From the IMG/VR virus record IMGVR_UViG_3300046167_000384, positions 1 to 47,038 of that record: a DNA stretch of 47,038 nt; one strand, given 5' to 3'. Shown in pieces: positions 5,263-47,038 of the stretch; position 1 is the stretch's first letter; each line of letters opens with the position of its first letter. Source of the DNA: a virus. A program made the translations under genes and the position numbers. The notes beneath the pieces are model-generated. The model was not told the DNA's origin and searched no databases. It saw nothing but the letters and a program-made list of their open reading frames with translations.

Positions 5263-5928
5263 ATGGCAGATAGATTTCCTCTAGTAGTAGACTCATCAAA
5301 TCAGAACATCAAGGAATTACCTGATGGAGATTCTCTACTACTCGGAGATAGCGAAAAATTAAGATTCGGTGATGGAACAGATTTAGACATCTATCACGAT
5401 GCAACAAATAGTTATCTAAATAATGCAACAGGCGATTTATATATTAGAACTGTAAATAATCTTAGAATAACAGACACAAGTGATAATAAGATGATTCTTT
5501 GTCAAGATGGCGGAGAAACTCAACTGTATCATAATGGATCAGAAAAATTAAATACAACAGCAAATGGAGTTGATGTAATAGGTAAAGTAGTGTGCACAAC
5601 TTCTGCTAGAATCGGACAAGTAGCACTTACTTCTAGCAGTAATGCAGTTGCATGGGATAGTGCAGCAGCGGCAAATGCATATCATGTTACTACTGAGAAT
5701 ACAACTTTCTCAGCACCAAGTAATGCAGCAGAAGGCGCTATTATCTCTGTAGAGATTGCCCAGGGTGGCACAGCTCGCACAGTTGCATGGAATACAGTAT
5801 TCGAGTTTGCAGCTAGTACAGCACCCGTAGTTACAGCGACAGCAAACAAAACAGATATATTTGCTTTTCGATACAATGGCTCAGTCTGGCAAGAAATTGG
5901 CAGAGTACAAAATATGGCACAAACCTAA
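5263..5928 (+). CDS. Fibre protein with DIYHDATNSY-type repeat
   Basis: 221 residues. The N-terminal half contains LRFGDGTDLDIYHDATNSY and similar short beta repeats found in many oceanic phage fibres. The C-terminal half is a beta-sandwich-like region ending in FRYNGSVWQEIGRV, a common end motif of such fibres. The stop overlaps the next ATG as TAATG at 5926-5930. A structural or attachment role is inferred from composition and location. Confidence 0.65.
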   Translation: MADRFPLVVDSSNQNIKELPDGDSLLLGDSEKLRFGDGTDLDIYHDATNSYLNNATGDLYIRTVNNLRITDTSDNKMILCQDGGETQLYHNGSEKLNTTANGVDVIGKVVCTTSARIGQVALTSSSNAVAWDSAAAANAYHVTTENTTFSAPSNAAEGAIISVEIAQGGTARTVAWNTVFEFAASTAPVVTATANKTDIFAFRYNGSVWQEIGRVQNMAQT

Positions 5929-40963: not shown

Positions 40964-41038
40964 TGGAGCGAGATATCAGAATCGAACTGATATCTACTGG
41001 TTGGAAGCCAGTCATAATAGCCTTTATACTAATCTCGC
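40964..41038 (-). tRNA. tRNA-Gly (TCC)
   Basis: 75 bases with acceptor GCGAGAT/ATCTCGC, anticodon loop CTTCCAA and T loop TTCGATT. CCA is encoded. It reads GGA, frequent in this A-rich genome. Confidence 0.93.
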
Positions 41039-41041
41039 ATG

Positions 41042-41116
41042 TGGCGGTCTGACGGAGAATCGAACTCCGACTACTAGCGTGACAAGCTAGGGTACTAACC
41101 ATTATACTACCAAACC
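41042..41116 (-). tRNA. tRNA-Asp (GTC)
   Basis: Acceptor GGTTTGG pairs with TCAGACC (two G-U pairs), discriminator G as expected for Asp, anticodon GTC in TTGTCAC, encoded CCA. Three bases separate it from tRNA-Gly. Confidence 0.93.
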
Positions 41117-41119
41117 AAG

Positions 41120-41195
41120 TGGTACTCCGTAGCAGGAGTCGAACTGCTGTTGCATGGATGAAAACCATGTGTCCTAACCACTAGACGAACGGAGC
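41120..41195 (-). tRNA. tRNA-Glu (TTC)
   Basis: Acceptor GCTCCGT with ACGGAGT, leaving a G-U closing pair; anticodon loop TTTTCAT with TTC; encoded CCA. Typical D arm TCTAGTGGTTAGGA. Confidence 0.92.
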
Positions 41196-41196
41196 A

Positions 41197-41272
41197 TGGT
41201 GCTGGATATCGGATTCGAACTGATGACCTACTGATTACAAATCAGTTGCTCTACCAACTGAGCTAATCCAGC
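41197..41272 (-). tRNA. tRNA-Thr (TGT)
   Basis: Acceptor GCTGGAT/ATCCAGC, D arm AGCTCAGTTGGTAGAGC, anticodon loop TTTGTAA with TGT reading ACA, encoded CCA. First in the leftward array, seven bases after the 41279 gene stop, so probably cut from the same transcript. Confidence 0.94.
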
Positions 41273-41278
41273 ATATTT

Positions 41279-41488
41279 TTAGTCCATTTGAATCATTCTT
41301 AGATTTACTACTTGCGTTGTGAAGGTAATATTCTCATCACGCAAAGTTATCGCTAGTTGATTCTGTAATTGTGGCTCAGGTTGTGGACTAGATACAACCT
41401 CAAAATACTCGCCATGTTCTGCTATAATCTTACGAAGTTTGTCATTTCTAGGAAAAATCTTAGCATATCTTTTATCTCTCCATCCCAT
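41279..41488 (-). CDS. Small protein before the tRNA array
   Basis: 69 residues. Starts MGWRDKRYAKIFPRND, has a Pro/Gln-rich middle (SSPQPEPQLQNQ) and a beta end. Overlaps the HTH stop by TAATG. Function unknown. Confidence 0.5.
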   Translation of the reverse strand: MGWRDKRYAKIFPRNDKLRKIIAEHGEYFEVVSSPQPEPQLQNQLAITLRDENITFTTQVVNLRMIQMD

Positions 41489-41859
41489 TATTCACCTCGC
41501 CAAACCAATTGATAGCCGTCATGGTTATCTTGACCATTACTTTCGTACTCTCTTAGAGTTAATACTAAGTTTTTCAAATCTGCCTTTGGCGACTTCTCCA
41601 AACCTACTATAGAATTTGCACTTATATCTAAAATACTTGCTAGTTCTTCTACTAACTCTTTCTTGGTAATAGGATCTTCGCCAGTCTTCGTTTTGTATAC
41701 TGTTTTCTTGTATACGCCCTCTCTACTTAACTTTCCTATTATAGATTTTACACTCTTATTGAGTTCATCTGCTAAAGCATTTACTGTTTCTCTTGTAGGT
41801 TGATCACTGTATGCTTTAACCATATAATCTACCTGTTCTTCTGTATAGTTTACACTCAT
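41488..41859 (-). CDS. HTH/SANT-like DNA-binding protein
   Basis: 123 residues from ATG 41859 (ATGA with the previous stop, AGGAG upstream). The N-terminal unit reads VNYTEEQVDYMVKAYSDQPT, then ETVNALADELNKSVKSIIGK and LSREGVYKK. The C-terminal part (ELVEELASILDISANSI, KSPKADLKNLVLTL) resembles that of the 45580 gene, its closest relative. The pair flanks the ncRNA unit and the small gene cluster. Probably a phage regulator (inference). Confidence 0.7.
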   Translation of the reverse strand: MSVNYTEEQVDYMVKAYSDQPTRETVNALADELNKSVKSIIGKLSREGVYKKTVYKTKTGEDPITKKELVEELASILDISANSIVGLEKSPKADLKNLVLTLREYESNGQDNHDGYQLVWRGE

Positions 41860-42044
41860 ACAATCTCTCCTTTTCCCCAAGTTGTTAAAAATTCTTCTTG
41901 TTCTCGAATAATATCTTCGACCTCAGCAGGTGTTAGTTTCCATTCTTTTACAAGTTTTCTTACTATAGCAGGATGTTCCAAGCCTTCTTCCAAGTGCGCT
42001 TCATAATCTATATGTAAACATATCTTAGCCCCTTGACTTAACAT
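41856..42044 (-). CDS. Small acidic protein
   Basis: 62 residues (MLSQGAKICLHIDYEAHLEE, KEWKLTPAEVEDIIREQEEF). It may contain a small HTH-like helix pair, but no family is recognised. Overlaps both neighbours. Confidence 0.5.
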   Translation of the reverse strand: MLSQGAKICLHIDYEAHLEEGLEHPAIVRKLVKEWKLTPAEVEDIIREQEEFLTTWGKGEIV

Positions 42045-44109: not shown

Positions 44110-44118
44110 CTTTTCCTC

Positions 44119-44256
44119 CTATGTATTGTCGCTGTCGTTATATTTGACTTTGTGTTTGTTGTAGCGTGAGTACTTTGTTTTGTCTCGCATACGAACTGCC
44201 CTGCAGACCTTTCGTGCATACTTCGCTACTAAATTTTGTTTTTTGTTCTTTTTCAT
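44119..44256 (-). CDS. 45-residue highly basic protein
   Basis: Starts MKKNKKQNLVAKYARKVCRA and continues rich in Lys, Arg and Tyr to DSDNT. Likely to bind nucleic acid or ribosomes. It is first in its operon; the ATG is nine bases after TATAAT, giving a predicted 5' leader of about three bases. Nothing resembling a binding site fits in that. Confidence 0.6.
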   Translation of the reverse strand: MKKNKKQNLVAKYARKVCRAVRMRDKTKYSRYNKHKVKYNDSDNT

Positions 44257-44265
44257 AATATGAAT

Positions 44266-44294
44266 ATTATACAGGAGTTAAGGAATTTTGTCAA
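44266..44294 (-). promoter_or_regulatory. Sigma-70 promoter, near-leaderless
   Basis: TTGACA, 17 bases, TATAAT at 44271-44266. Drives the small-gene cluster 44256 to 41279 and possibly the tRNAs, since no clear terminator was seen in between. Confidence 0.9.
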
Positions 44295-44347
44295 GAGATT
44301 TTTTTGATTTGGCATCAGAAATTTGATGTGGGGGAATTGTATGAAAT

Positions 44348-44393
44348 AAAAAACCCTCTATACTTGCTATCATGACTAACGAGTAAAGAGGGG
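44348..44393 (-). terminator. Terminator of the large noncoding unit
   Basis: CCCTCT/AGAGGG stem continued by ACT/AGT after a one-base bulge pair, followed on the minus strand by TTTTTTATTTC. The loop is long (about 19 bases) but the shape and T-run are good. Confidence 0.8.
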
Positions 44394-45469
44394 GAAATGT
44401 TAATATTGCATCTTTCGATATGCTTTCTCTTTTCCACTAGAAAACATTAAAACCTGAGTGGGAGTTTGTTCCTATTGTTAACGCAGGGGGGACTAAACTC
44501 AAACAAAATGTCTGCGTATGTACTGTAGACTTATAACTTGTCTCGAACAGTGAATACTTCTTGAACCTTTACTACAACCAACAACATATGCATCAGTGCG
44601 TGGCAAGTAAGCAGGTGGTATTTACTTCATTCGATTAACCCAAGAATTAATTATCGCTACTTCATAATTGATTACGCAGTTGCCTGCGGAGGTCGATTTA
44701 AGGCTCTGTTCCTCACTACCTTTTTGTTGATGCTATTGCACTTGTGCTCAATCGTTGAGGGAAGCTTACTGCATGTGGCTTGCTGTGCTCGCCCACGCCT
44801 TACTGCCTCGTTTTGCTGTTTATTTAACAGTAGTTGCAACACTACTCGCATCTATCGTTCGACAGGGATGTAGTTCTACTTAGTCCCATTGAGAGTTCCA
44901 TGCGTTTGCCCTACTCTCCGACTGTGTTCACAGGTGGCGTGGGACTTAGTTAAGAGCGTAGTAGCCGTTCTTATGATAGTTCTACTACTTTGAGGACTTA
45001 AATGGATTTTACAAAGAGTATTTCATCTTACACCTCTGCCTCAACTCTTAAGAGTATGCAGTCGGGTAGCGAGGTTTATTTATTGGCTATTGCTCAATCA
45101 TTTCTTTTTACCTGTACACGCTGGGGTTTCCCTGCTACATACTATTAAAAGTGTTGTTTTCCTACTCGATCTTTTAGCTGGTGTCTGTGGAAAACGCTAC
45201 ATAAAGTCAGCGTCCAGCGAGCAAATGTTGTCGTGCATTGCTTAATAATCACGGGTTGTTACGCCTCACAAGTTTCGTATTGCAATACTACTCCTCATCC
45301 TCACGCTGACCTTCCAATAATGCAGAAGTCGATCAGTTCACTACTGCTGGGGATTGGGTGATTGATAGTCCAACCACTTACCTGCCTCAATCACTCTCGG
45401 CAAGGTTGCTGACACACATAGGAATGATACCAATTTACGAAATGTCAGTCTTTTATCTTTTTTCGATAT
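44348..45469 (-). ncRNA. Candidate 1.1-kb structured noncoding RNA
   Basis: A transcription unit of about 1122 bases between the predicted +1 (about 45469) and a terminator at 44348-44393. No frame on either strand shows a credible gene. Many stems are visible. 44882-44888 pairs with 44940-44946, enclosing two hairpins (44891-44896/44913-44918 and 44922-44926/44929-44933), a proper junction. 44958-44964 pairs with 44982-44988. Palindromes lie at 45044-45055 and 45277-45288. GAGGCAG occurs three times on the RNA strand. Size, phage context and nearby tRNAs recall GOLLD and ROOL RNAs, but I cannot confirm homology. The base composition is less A-rich than the flanking genes. Confidence 0.75.
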
Positions 45470-45475
45470 AAATAT

Positions 45476-45504
45476 ATTATACTGAAAGTGAAACCATTTG
45501 TCAA
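45476..45504 (-). promoter_or_regulatory. Sigma-70 promoter of the large noncoding unit
   Basis: TTGACA, exactly 17 bases, TATAAT at 45481-45476. No start codon with a binding site or usable frame follows, unlike the sibling promoters. Confidence 0.92.
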
Positions 45505-45541
45505 GAAAAATTTTGAATTATTTATCTTAATCTACCTTGAC

Positions 45542-45566
45542 AAAAGGTGGCGATTAGGTCGCCACT
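45542..45566 (-). terminator. Terminator after HTH gene
   Basis: GTGGCGA/TCGCCAC seven-pair stem with a five-base loop, followed on the minus strand by CTTTTGTC. It separates the HTH gene from the noncoding unit, which starts 73 bases further on. Confidence 0.8.
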
Positions 45567-45579
45567 CCTTGACAATTTC

Positions 45580-45939
45580 TTAGCTGATTGTGTCAATCAA
45601 TCTTTGGAGGTCAGCCTTGCTGGCTTTCACTAGGGAAGGAAGCTCTATGCCATAGTGTGTCTCGATAGCTTGTAAGAGTTCTGCTTTGCGTACTATTGGC
45701 TCACCAGTCTTAGTTGTTCTTGGTTGTGCTTTGTACACGCCTTCTCTTGAAAGCTTGGCAATTACGGATCTTGTGTTCTTGCCTAATTCTTTAGCTAGTG
45801 CGTCTACTGTTTCTCTTGTAGGATTAGCTGTGTAAGTTGCGACCATTTTTGAGGTCATTTGTTCTGTATAATTAGCTTGTGCCATTATGTTCTCCTGTTT
45901 GTTAAATAGTTTGTTGTAAATTTGTTTAATTGTTTTCAT
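45580..45939 (-). CDS. HTH/SANT-like DNA-binding protein, two possible starts
   Basis: 119 residues from ATG 45939 (nine bases after the -10, near-leaderless) or 101 from ATG 45885 (AGGAG upstream; MAQANYTEQ). The domain begins at NYTEQMTSKMVATYTANPTR; ETVDALAKELGKNTRSVI and LSREGVYK match the 41488 gene closely. The C-terminal SLVKASKADLQRLID is also shared. It has its own promoter and terminator. Probably an abundant early regulator, perhaps acting on the repeated promoters (inference). Confidence 0.75.
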   Translation of the reverse strand: MKTIKQIYNKLFNKQENIMAQANYTEQMTSKMVATYTANPTRETVDALAKELGKNTRSVIAKLSREGVYKAQPRTTKTGEPIVRKAELLQAIETHYGIELPSLVKASKADLQRLIDTIS

Positions 45940-45948
45940 TATGATAAT

Positions 45949-45978
45949 ATTATATCAACTTTACTTCTGGCTTGTCAA
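45949..45978 (-). promoter_or_regulatory. Sigma-70 promoter for HTH gene
   Basis: TTGACA, 18 bases, TATAAT at 45954-45949, the one family member with an 18-base spacer. It overlaps the stop of the upstream gene. Confidence 0.85.
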
Positions 45979-46162
45979 TAGGTTGGCTTACATTTCTTAA
46001 TCTTTTTTCATTCAGTAAAGCCTCGTCATTCATTCTGTGCCAAATTTGAATTTGGTTTGCCTGCCACTCTTGTTGAGCTTGCACACGCTTTCTTTTTTGA
46101 AGTCTGATACTGTCGTTTACTGATCTTTGCCTTTGCCTTAGCCTACGCATAGTTCTGCTCAT
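45950..46162 (-). CDS. Basic protein of unknown function
   Basis: 70 residues from ATG 46162 (ATGA with the previous stop). Starts MSRTMRRLRQRQRS and stays rich in Arg, Gln and Lys with long helices (VQAQQEWQANQIQIWH). May bind RNA or DNA. The stop codon overlaps the -10 of the next promoter. Confidence 0.55.
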   Translation of the reverse strand: MSRTMRRLRQRQRSVNDSIRLQKRKRVQAQQEWQANQIQIWHRMNDEALLNEKRLRNVSQPIDKPEVKLI

Positions 46163-46308
46163 CCGAATACTCCTGCAATAAAAGTAGCAAACAGTATCCA
46201 TGTCAATGGATGCAATAACAACATTCGCCAAGGTATAGGTTTCCTGTTTGCTTTCTTTTTCTTGATGCGTTCTAATTCCTTAGCCACATTCATTCTTTTG
46301 TTAAACAT
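46159..46308 (-). CDS. 49-residue membrane protein, leaderless
   Basis: Starts MFNKRMNVAKELERIKKKKA, a basic segment, then one hydrophobic helix (LTWILFATFIAGVFG). The ATG is six bases after TATAAT, so a leaderless mRNA is predicted. Upstream in-frame ATGs lie within or before the promoter and are excluded. Confidence 0.65.
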   Translation of the reverse strand: MFNKRMNVAKELERIKKKKANRKPIPWRMLLLHPLTWILFATFIAGVFG

Positions 46309-46314
46309 AAGTAT

Positions 46315-46343
46315 ATTATAACAAAAGTGATCTGGCTTGTCAA
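46315..46343 (-). promoter_or_regulatory. Sigma-70 promoter, leaderless start
   Basis: TTGACA, 17 bases, TATAAT at 46320-46315, then ATACTT and ATG 46308. Preceded by AAAATACTTC. Confidence 0.92.
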
Positions 46344-46355
46344 GAAGTATTTTCA

Positions 46356-46541
46356 TTATGTCATTGTCCAAGCGATTACAGCACATACTAATACGAATAC
46401 TGCAAATATTCCAAAGTCCTCTGCTCTCATATCGCTAATTACTGACAATTCATCTACTAGCCAATTTAATACTACGAACGCCAGTGATAACACGATAGGC
46501 GACATAAATATTACTAAGATGAAGTTTTCCATAAATGTCAT
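46356..46541 (-). CDS. 61-residue two-span membrane protein
   Basis: Starts MTFMENFILVIFMSPIVLSL, with a second helix FGIFAVFVLVCAVIAW, joined by an acidic loop. AAGGAAAACAAATT precedes the ATG; an upstream extension to 46781 would cross the promoter and is rejected. First gene of the leftward block. Confidence 0.65.
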   Translation of the reverse strand: MTFMENFILVIFMSPIVLSLAFVVLNWLVDELSVISDMRAEDFGIFAVFVLVCAVIAWTMT

Positions 46542-46572
46542 AATTTGTTTTCCTTTTTGAAAATATAGTAAT

Positions 46573-46601
46573 ATTATATCTGAATTGATTGGCGTTGTCA
46601 A
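46573..46601 (-). promoter_or_regulatory. Sigma-70 promoter, leftmost-reading early-type
   Basis: TTGACA, 17 bases, TATAAT at 46578-46573. Gives a leader of about 25 bases with AAGGA to the gene at 46541. Confidence 0.88.
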
Positions 46602-46726: not shown

Positions 46727-46755
46727 TTGACAAACCCGCAAAAACCTGATATAAT
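46727..46755 (+). promoter_or_regulatory. Sigma-70 promoter, rightward toward window end
   Basis: TTGACA, 17 bases, TATAAT at 46750-46755. Expected +1 about 46762. Sequence after it has no clear gene; a frame to 47032 has only a TTG start. Confidence 0.9.
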
Positions 46756-46789
46756 ACCAGGGTGGGGAAGGGGTAGGTCAAAGTTGCGG

Positions 46790-47038
46790 AGGCTCGCCAA
46801 GCTTGCCAATTTAGACTATATACTTCATTTTTGCACTTACTTCTGGCTGGCGTGCCTAGTTTTTGTACTTATAACTTTTGCACTTTGGCGCAGAGCATGC
46901 CACACACCCGCAGTAAGTCCTCACTATCACGGAGACCCCGTCAAACACTGCGCGTGGCCCTCTATCGAATTTGTACTTCATTTTTTCACTTCACTACTCT
47001 ACTTTGGCGCGCAAGCGTGCTTATTGGCATGAGAATTG
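46790..47038 (+). repeat. Imperfect repeat region at window end
   Basis: Three related segments begin at about 46821, 46865 and 46973. Each runs TACTT, a T-run, CACTT, then GGCG and GTGC or ATGCC. They are spaced unevenly. The reading frame to 47032 has two hydrophobic stretches (FWLACLVFVLITFALW), but no ATG, no good binding site and a repeat-like origin. I treat it as a transcribed repeat region, perhaps RNA, rather than a gene. Confidence 0.4.

Follow-up and report, generated by a model that had tools for sequence, protein, structure and literature searches.

A family of large structured noncoding RNAs in environmental phages, probably a new class outside Rfam

What does a phage keep in 1.1 kb of its genome that encodes no protein? 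This question is raised by positions 44348–45469 of an IMG/VR virus record of 47,038 bases, the whole of which we analysed and call the window. A preliminary description had proposed that this region is an orphan structured RNA transcription unit, either a divergent relative of the large phage RNAs GOLLD and ROOL or a new class. To our knowledge, few classes of very large structured RNA have been recognized in bacteria and phages. A phage class that is unrelated to these and has dozens of diverse members, two recurrent motifs (M1 and M2, below) and a fixed neighbour would provide an independent test of the function of large RNAs. From the evidence that follows, we consider the region very probably to be the gene of a large RNA (approximately 1.1 kb) of environmental phages, one that is structured, noncoding and transcribed on its own.

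An insulated unit that carries no coding signal

Consistent with the initial impression that neither strand contains a credible gene, we found no open reading frame (ORF) of at least 60 amino acids on either strand of positions 44110–45579. In the window, the longest ORF measured 59 versus 58 amino acids in dinucleotide shuffles for the sense strand and 51 versus 69 amino acids for the antisense strand. The longest sense ORF averaged 56 amino acids over 60 homologous units, compared with 55 in dinucleotide shuffles. Antisense ORFs were slightly longer than in shuffles across the family (81 versus 67 amino acids), an excess that the window does not share. Length changes among relatives are frequent and do not keep the frame. 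Because ORF lengths were those of shuffled sequences, we rejected a protein-coding rescue of the region. The RNA units are noncoding.

The proposed RNA gene (44348–45469, minus strand) is defined by a promoter, a terminator, the lack of an ORF signal, homologues in 74 units and covariation. Its promoter (TTGACA-17-TATAAT; 45476–45504, minus strand) matches the sigma-70 consensus at 12 of 12 positions, and an equally perfect or 11/12 promoter stands at the head of nearly all relatives. The RNA is predicted to start approximately 7 nt past the −10 hexamer and to end in the U-run of an intrinsic terminator on the same strand (about 44348–44393), in which the stem CCCTCT/AGAGGG is followed by six T residues; a terminator-like hairpin ends 68 of the 74 homologous units. 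Both signals had been placed correctly in the preliminary description. On the upstream side, a terminator revealed by a terminator scan (45547–45565, minus strand) sets the neighbouring gene apart from the RNA unit, and on the downstream side the next operon has a promoter of its own (44266–44294, minus strand), again a 12/12 consensus match. The unit is insulated on both sides and, judging from these signals, would be transcribed autonomously. With a perfect sigma-70 consensus promoter, the RNA should be early and abundant; high abundance during infection is characteristic of large structured phage noncoding RNAs.

Homologous units in environmental phages

Relatives of the unit were found through its upstream neighbour or, independently, through the two RNA motifs. 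This conserved neighbour (45580–45939, minus strand) encodes a small D5-like/IF2_N-like putative DNA-binding protein, which matched phrog_323 (E 6e-6) and phrog_1725 (E 4e-4), with Pfam IF2_N below the cut-off. Searching with this 119-amino-acid protein gave 54 loci, to which a second neighbour gene added L059. The gene-free stretch is homologous in relatives by blastn and nhmmer, with 96% identity at the upper end (L004) and isolated conserved blocks at the lower. Nearly all loci have the same gene order: the D5-like gene, a perfect promoter (often doubled in tandem among relatives), the gene-free stretch, a terminator, another perfect promoter and an operon of small genes. In total, we collected 74 units, the complete ones being mostly 0.65–1.6 kb long. 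After the promoter leader and terminator had been trimmed, nhmmer at E ≤ 1e-4 connected 69 of the 74 into a single network, and reversed queries produced no links; L051–L054 formed a separate group outside this network and L021 stood alone. A global alignment of all units was too divergent for use. The region is not an orphan, as had been supposed: about 70 IMG/VR contigs carry homologues.

Scanning the 2.9 million viral contigs of IMG/VR for the M1 pattern gave 22 matches, all with an 11–12/12 promoter 37–60 nt upstream. The M2 pattern matched 27 times in the same collection; 24 of these matches have the stem around the fixed loop and sit in such units, and the other three (L090, L097 and L102), approximately the number expected by chance, lie in long ORFs with neither stem nor promoter and serve as internal controls. 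Short fragments and chance matches excepted, the contigs found by motif also carry the D5-like gene. Among 84,980 bacterial and archaeal genomes, the M1 pattern matched once, inside a protein-coding sequence, which we took as chance. No member of the RNA family was found in 50,697 records of cultured phages: blastn with the window RNA, with the M2 hairpin and with units from two further subfamilies returned chance matches or none, and the D5-like protein had no real match there. The window phage is far from any cultured phage, its DNA polymerase being approximately 45% identical to the nearest ones, those of T5-like Demerecviridae.

Covarying modules and mosaic architecture

Compensatory changes among homologues were found in four structural elements, supporting the proposal of a structured RNA together with the conserved architecture of the predicted transcription unit. 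The alignments concerned (A2, A3, A5 and A7) consist of stretches cut by eye around the motifs and lean towards structure, and the shuffle controls quoted below do not correct for relatedness. The first element, a 5′ hairpin with the conserved inner sequence CGTAAATTGGTATCATTCCTATG (45409–45448, minus strand; A3), showed both-side changes in five of six pairs (15 cells) and a covariation score of 0.748 versus 0.226 in shuffles, kinship ignored. It is followed by a GUUUUCC/GGAAAAC hairpin (45152–45201, minus strand; A5 helices 1 and 2) that is near-invariant in the window's group, its ten pairs being 100% paired, with both-side changes in one. A 14-bp outer helix (A5 helix 3), in which 45138–45151 pair with 45045–45058, encloses M1 within 45045–45151 (minus strand). 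The core of the window's group (A5) showed both-side changes in 15 pairs, most of them contributed by L011, and seven of these pairs are compensatory changes in the 14-bp helix.

Module M1 itself (45067–45123, minus strand; A2) consists of a covarying outer P1 stem, a 5-nt bulge, a 3-bp stem, an A-rich internal loop (AAAAAnAAATG opposite AAATAA) and an inner stem WUUNAGC/GCNAAW with a bulged A. Among 12 sequences, 11 of 15 pairs changed on both sides (36 cells); the covariation score was 0.542 versus 0.178 in shuffles, none of 500 shuffles reached it and slid controls stayed at or below 0.18. One A is missing from an unpaired A-run in the L031 row of this alignment, which affects no counted pair. 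Model R1 recovered M1 in the window at 45123–45067 (E 2.8e-7) and gave 39 matches at E ≤ 1.4e-4 in 70 sources, a few of which are the same contig; none of these matches fell in a source that lacks a unit. Module M2 (44958–44988, minus strand; A7) is a 7-bp stem with an invariant 17-nt loop, AACUAYCAUAAGAACGG. Six of its seven pairs changed on both sides (34 cells), with a score of 0.857 versus 0.240 in shuffles, kinship ignored; the L098 row has one extra 5′ base, again outside the counted pairs.

M2 corresponds to the seven-pair stem (44958–44964 with 44982–44988) noted in the preliminary description, which proved real and covarying in relatives. Two other proposed features stood only in part. 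The stem closing a putative three-way junction (44882–44888 with 44940–44946) is complementary as described and is not conserved, its 3′ strand being gone in L004, which is 96% identical there. The three copies of GAGGCAG are present, at unit positions 88, 434 and 667, and are absent from L007 and L008; the first copy is one arm of a stem and changes together with its partner in L005.

Consensus folding gave z scores, relative to column-shuffled alignments, of −7.1 and −10.4 for the first 480 nt in the window's group; for group B the score was −9.7. This signal lies mostly in the 5′ half; the 3′ half is hypervariable, with a signal that is weaker or an alignment that is too variable. As most of the 3′ half showed little covariation in consensus folding of aligned units, support for the fold falls short of the whole molecule. 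We dropped single-sequence folding energy as evidence, with a z score of −1.7 for the region while other stretches of the window reach −5.4; the structural signal resides in comparative folding, not in single-sequence energy. The placement of modules differs between units. In the window's group, M1 is located approximately 350 nt from the start of the RNA, compared with approximately 20–45 nt elsewhere, and a hairpin block at unit positions 487–518 of the window is found at 955–986 in L039. Comparison of the units shows what appears to be a chain of separate modules, with a conserved 5′ half containing M1, then M2, then a hypervariable 3′ half. It likewise shows that modules have been exchanged among phages, with the unit holding its seat behind the D5-like gene. 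Such module shuffling would be an unusual case of a long RNA evolving domain by domain.

Relation to known large RNAs

A search of Rfam with cmscan returned no match to the RNA unit when the window was scanned at the gathering threshold and, in the region at E ≤ 10, two chance-level matches only. When 19 loci of relatives were searched at E ≤ 1, the RNA units had nothing beyond weak chance matches, and the matches outside the units were tRNAs and a glutamine riboswitch. With no match to their Rfam covariance models at these thresholds, we rejected membership in GOLLD, ROOL, OLE, raiA and HEARO, the families that had been suggested for comparison. Our search of the open-access literature found no description of this RNA family. 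Taken at the level of sequence, these comparisons show conserved, noncoding, covarying units, bounded by promoters and terminators, that form a family outside Rfam. This family probably represents a new class of large phage RNAs; covariation, unit architecture and the absence of an Rfam match favour this option of the two that had been offered.

The closest comparisons are with GOLLD and ROOL, both of which assemble into RNA cages whose use is not known (PMC12286853). With GOLLD, the units share a large size, a structured fold, a phage origin, an unknown function, a frequent location near tRNAs and a division into one conserved and one variable half. In GOLLD, the 3′ region is universally conserved and the 5′ region less so (PMC12286853), whereas in the window family the 5′ half is conserved and the 3′ half is variable. 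The family further differs from GOLLD in having a perfect promoter to itself, downstream of a D5-like gene, and in modules, M1 and M2, that match no Rfam family. The closed 14-mer cage of GOLLD is a trait seen by cryo-EM, whereas the window family is known here from sequence. ROOL is similarly a large structured RNA of phages or prophages that lies close to tRNA islands, but the window family has no Rfam match to it, spans 0.65–1.6 kb and has a mosaic module content across units. As to tRNAs, the window has four at 40964–41272, approximately 3.1 kb from the RNA unit, and phages of the window's group have a tRNA cluster 3–5 kb downstream of the RNA. A tRNA-Glu lies directly beside the unit in L027, L028, L086 and L045; in most contigs, no tRNA directly adjoins it. 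The family is of the same kind as GOLLD and ROOL, a large structured phage RNA near tRNAs, although by model it is neither.

Other long RNAs offer looser parallels. ICP1 produces a noncoding transcript of approximately 0.8 kb that is unclassified (PMC7567579), and phage K produces lnc001, a long unclassified transcript with its own early promoter (PMC9241854). Similar to these, the window RNA is long, unclassified and predicted from ORF-less space, but they are known through RNA-seq of single phages and the window family through comparative analysis. OLE, a large and ornate RNA, was likewise found by covariation (PMC12286853); it is bacterial rather than phage-borne, and the window region has no Rfam match to it. 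The window family has the features of a long ORF-free phage transcription unit, its transcription being predicted, with a structure supported by covariation.

Proposed function and alternative explanations

How might such an RNA act? We propose that it would be transcribed early and abundantly from its perfect sigma-70 promoter and would act as a molecule in its own right, as a self-assembling scaffold or container of the type suggested for GOLLD and ROOL. In this model, the invariant loops would serve as contact surfaces and the variable 3′ half as a cargo-specific or spacer part, with phage tRNAs as a plausible cargo. By analogy with these RNAs, a scaffold or container is the mechanism we rank first, and we hold it tentatively; the full explanation, structured noncoding RNA with a scaffold-type mechanism, seems to us somewhat better than an even bet. 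More speculatively, the family may be a new, widespread and mosaic class of self-assembling scaffolds made of interchangeable modules, which phages exchange like protein domains and which has a fixed place in the genome behind a D5-like regulator.

The main rival holds that the structured RNA is a decoy or regulator; expressed strongly and early, it would titrate a host factor through its invariant loops. A perfect early-type promoter beside small-gene operons is compatible with this idea, invariant loops in otherwise variable RNAs would be expected under selection by a fixed binding partner, and fast module turnover fits an arms race. By contrast, a size of 0.65–1.6 kb with many modules speaks against it; the decoy RNAs known to us are all far smaller than that. 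When the conserved loops were compared with the rest of the window for antisense pairing, complementarity never exceeded 11 nt. We regard a decoy as possible but unlikely; the factor that it would titrate might be RNA polymerase, a ribosome or RNA-binding protein, or a defence nuclease or toxin.

A highly diverged form of GOLLD or ROOL would fit the shared size range, the phage origin and the nearby tRNAs, but neither the window region at E ≤ 10 nor the 19 relatives' loci at E ≤ 1 matched either model, and the conserved end is reversed relative to GOLLD (PMC12286853), making this reading very unlikely and leaving the earlier suggestion of such a relative without support. It is also highly improbable that the region functions as DNA, as a replication origin or a packaging or recombination site: inverted repeats covary in DNA too and the neighbouring D5-like protein is a putative DNA binder, but the stretch has a constant orientation and always lies between promoter and terminator, its covarying stems contain G-U pairs, and M1 and M2 are asymmetric (a bulge, a long fixed loop and an A-rich internal loop). 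Least probable of all is a long leader or attenuator, for which the position upstream of a same-strand operon might argue, or a decayed or frameshifted gene, given the terminator in 68 of 74 units and the separate perfect promoter of the operon in the first case, and the shuffle-like ORF lengths and frame-breaking length changes in the second.

Neighbouring features

The structured RNA is accompanied by several further features. Five perfect 12/12 sigma-70 promoters lie on the minus strand of the window within 2.3 kb (44266–46601) and have an AT-rich start region in common. On the plus strand, at 46727–47038, another 12/12 promoter reads off the end of the contig; no clear gene follows it, and it could head a further noncoding unit. 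We checked nine records (the window, L098, L106, L023, L025, L068, L032, L029 and L048) for copies of the D5-like gene; eight contain two D5-like/IF2_N-like genes 3.5–5.4 kb apart, and each RNA motif occurs at most once per record. The probable second copy in the window (41488–41880) lies just before the tRNA cluster. In L045, the tRNA-Glu (5506–5580) begins approximately 20 nt past the terminator of the large RNA, so that read-through would yield an RNA–tRNA fusion. Six relatives (L009, L015, L018, L019, L020 and L024) have a stretch of approximately 90 nt between tandem promoters upstream of the large RNA, in which a stable conserved hairpin, GAUGCGAAGGCAUC, sits inside a longer stem; this stretch may be an additional small RNA or may extend the large one at its 5′ end. 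Finally, the glutamine riboswitch in L021 (6775–6891, minus strand) scores above the Rfam gathering threshold and may be a clue to the hosts that these phages infect.
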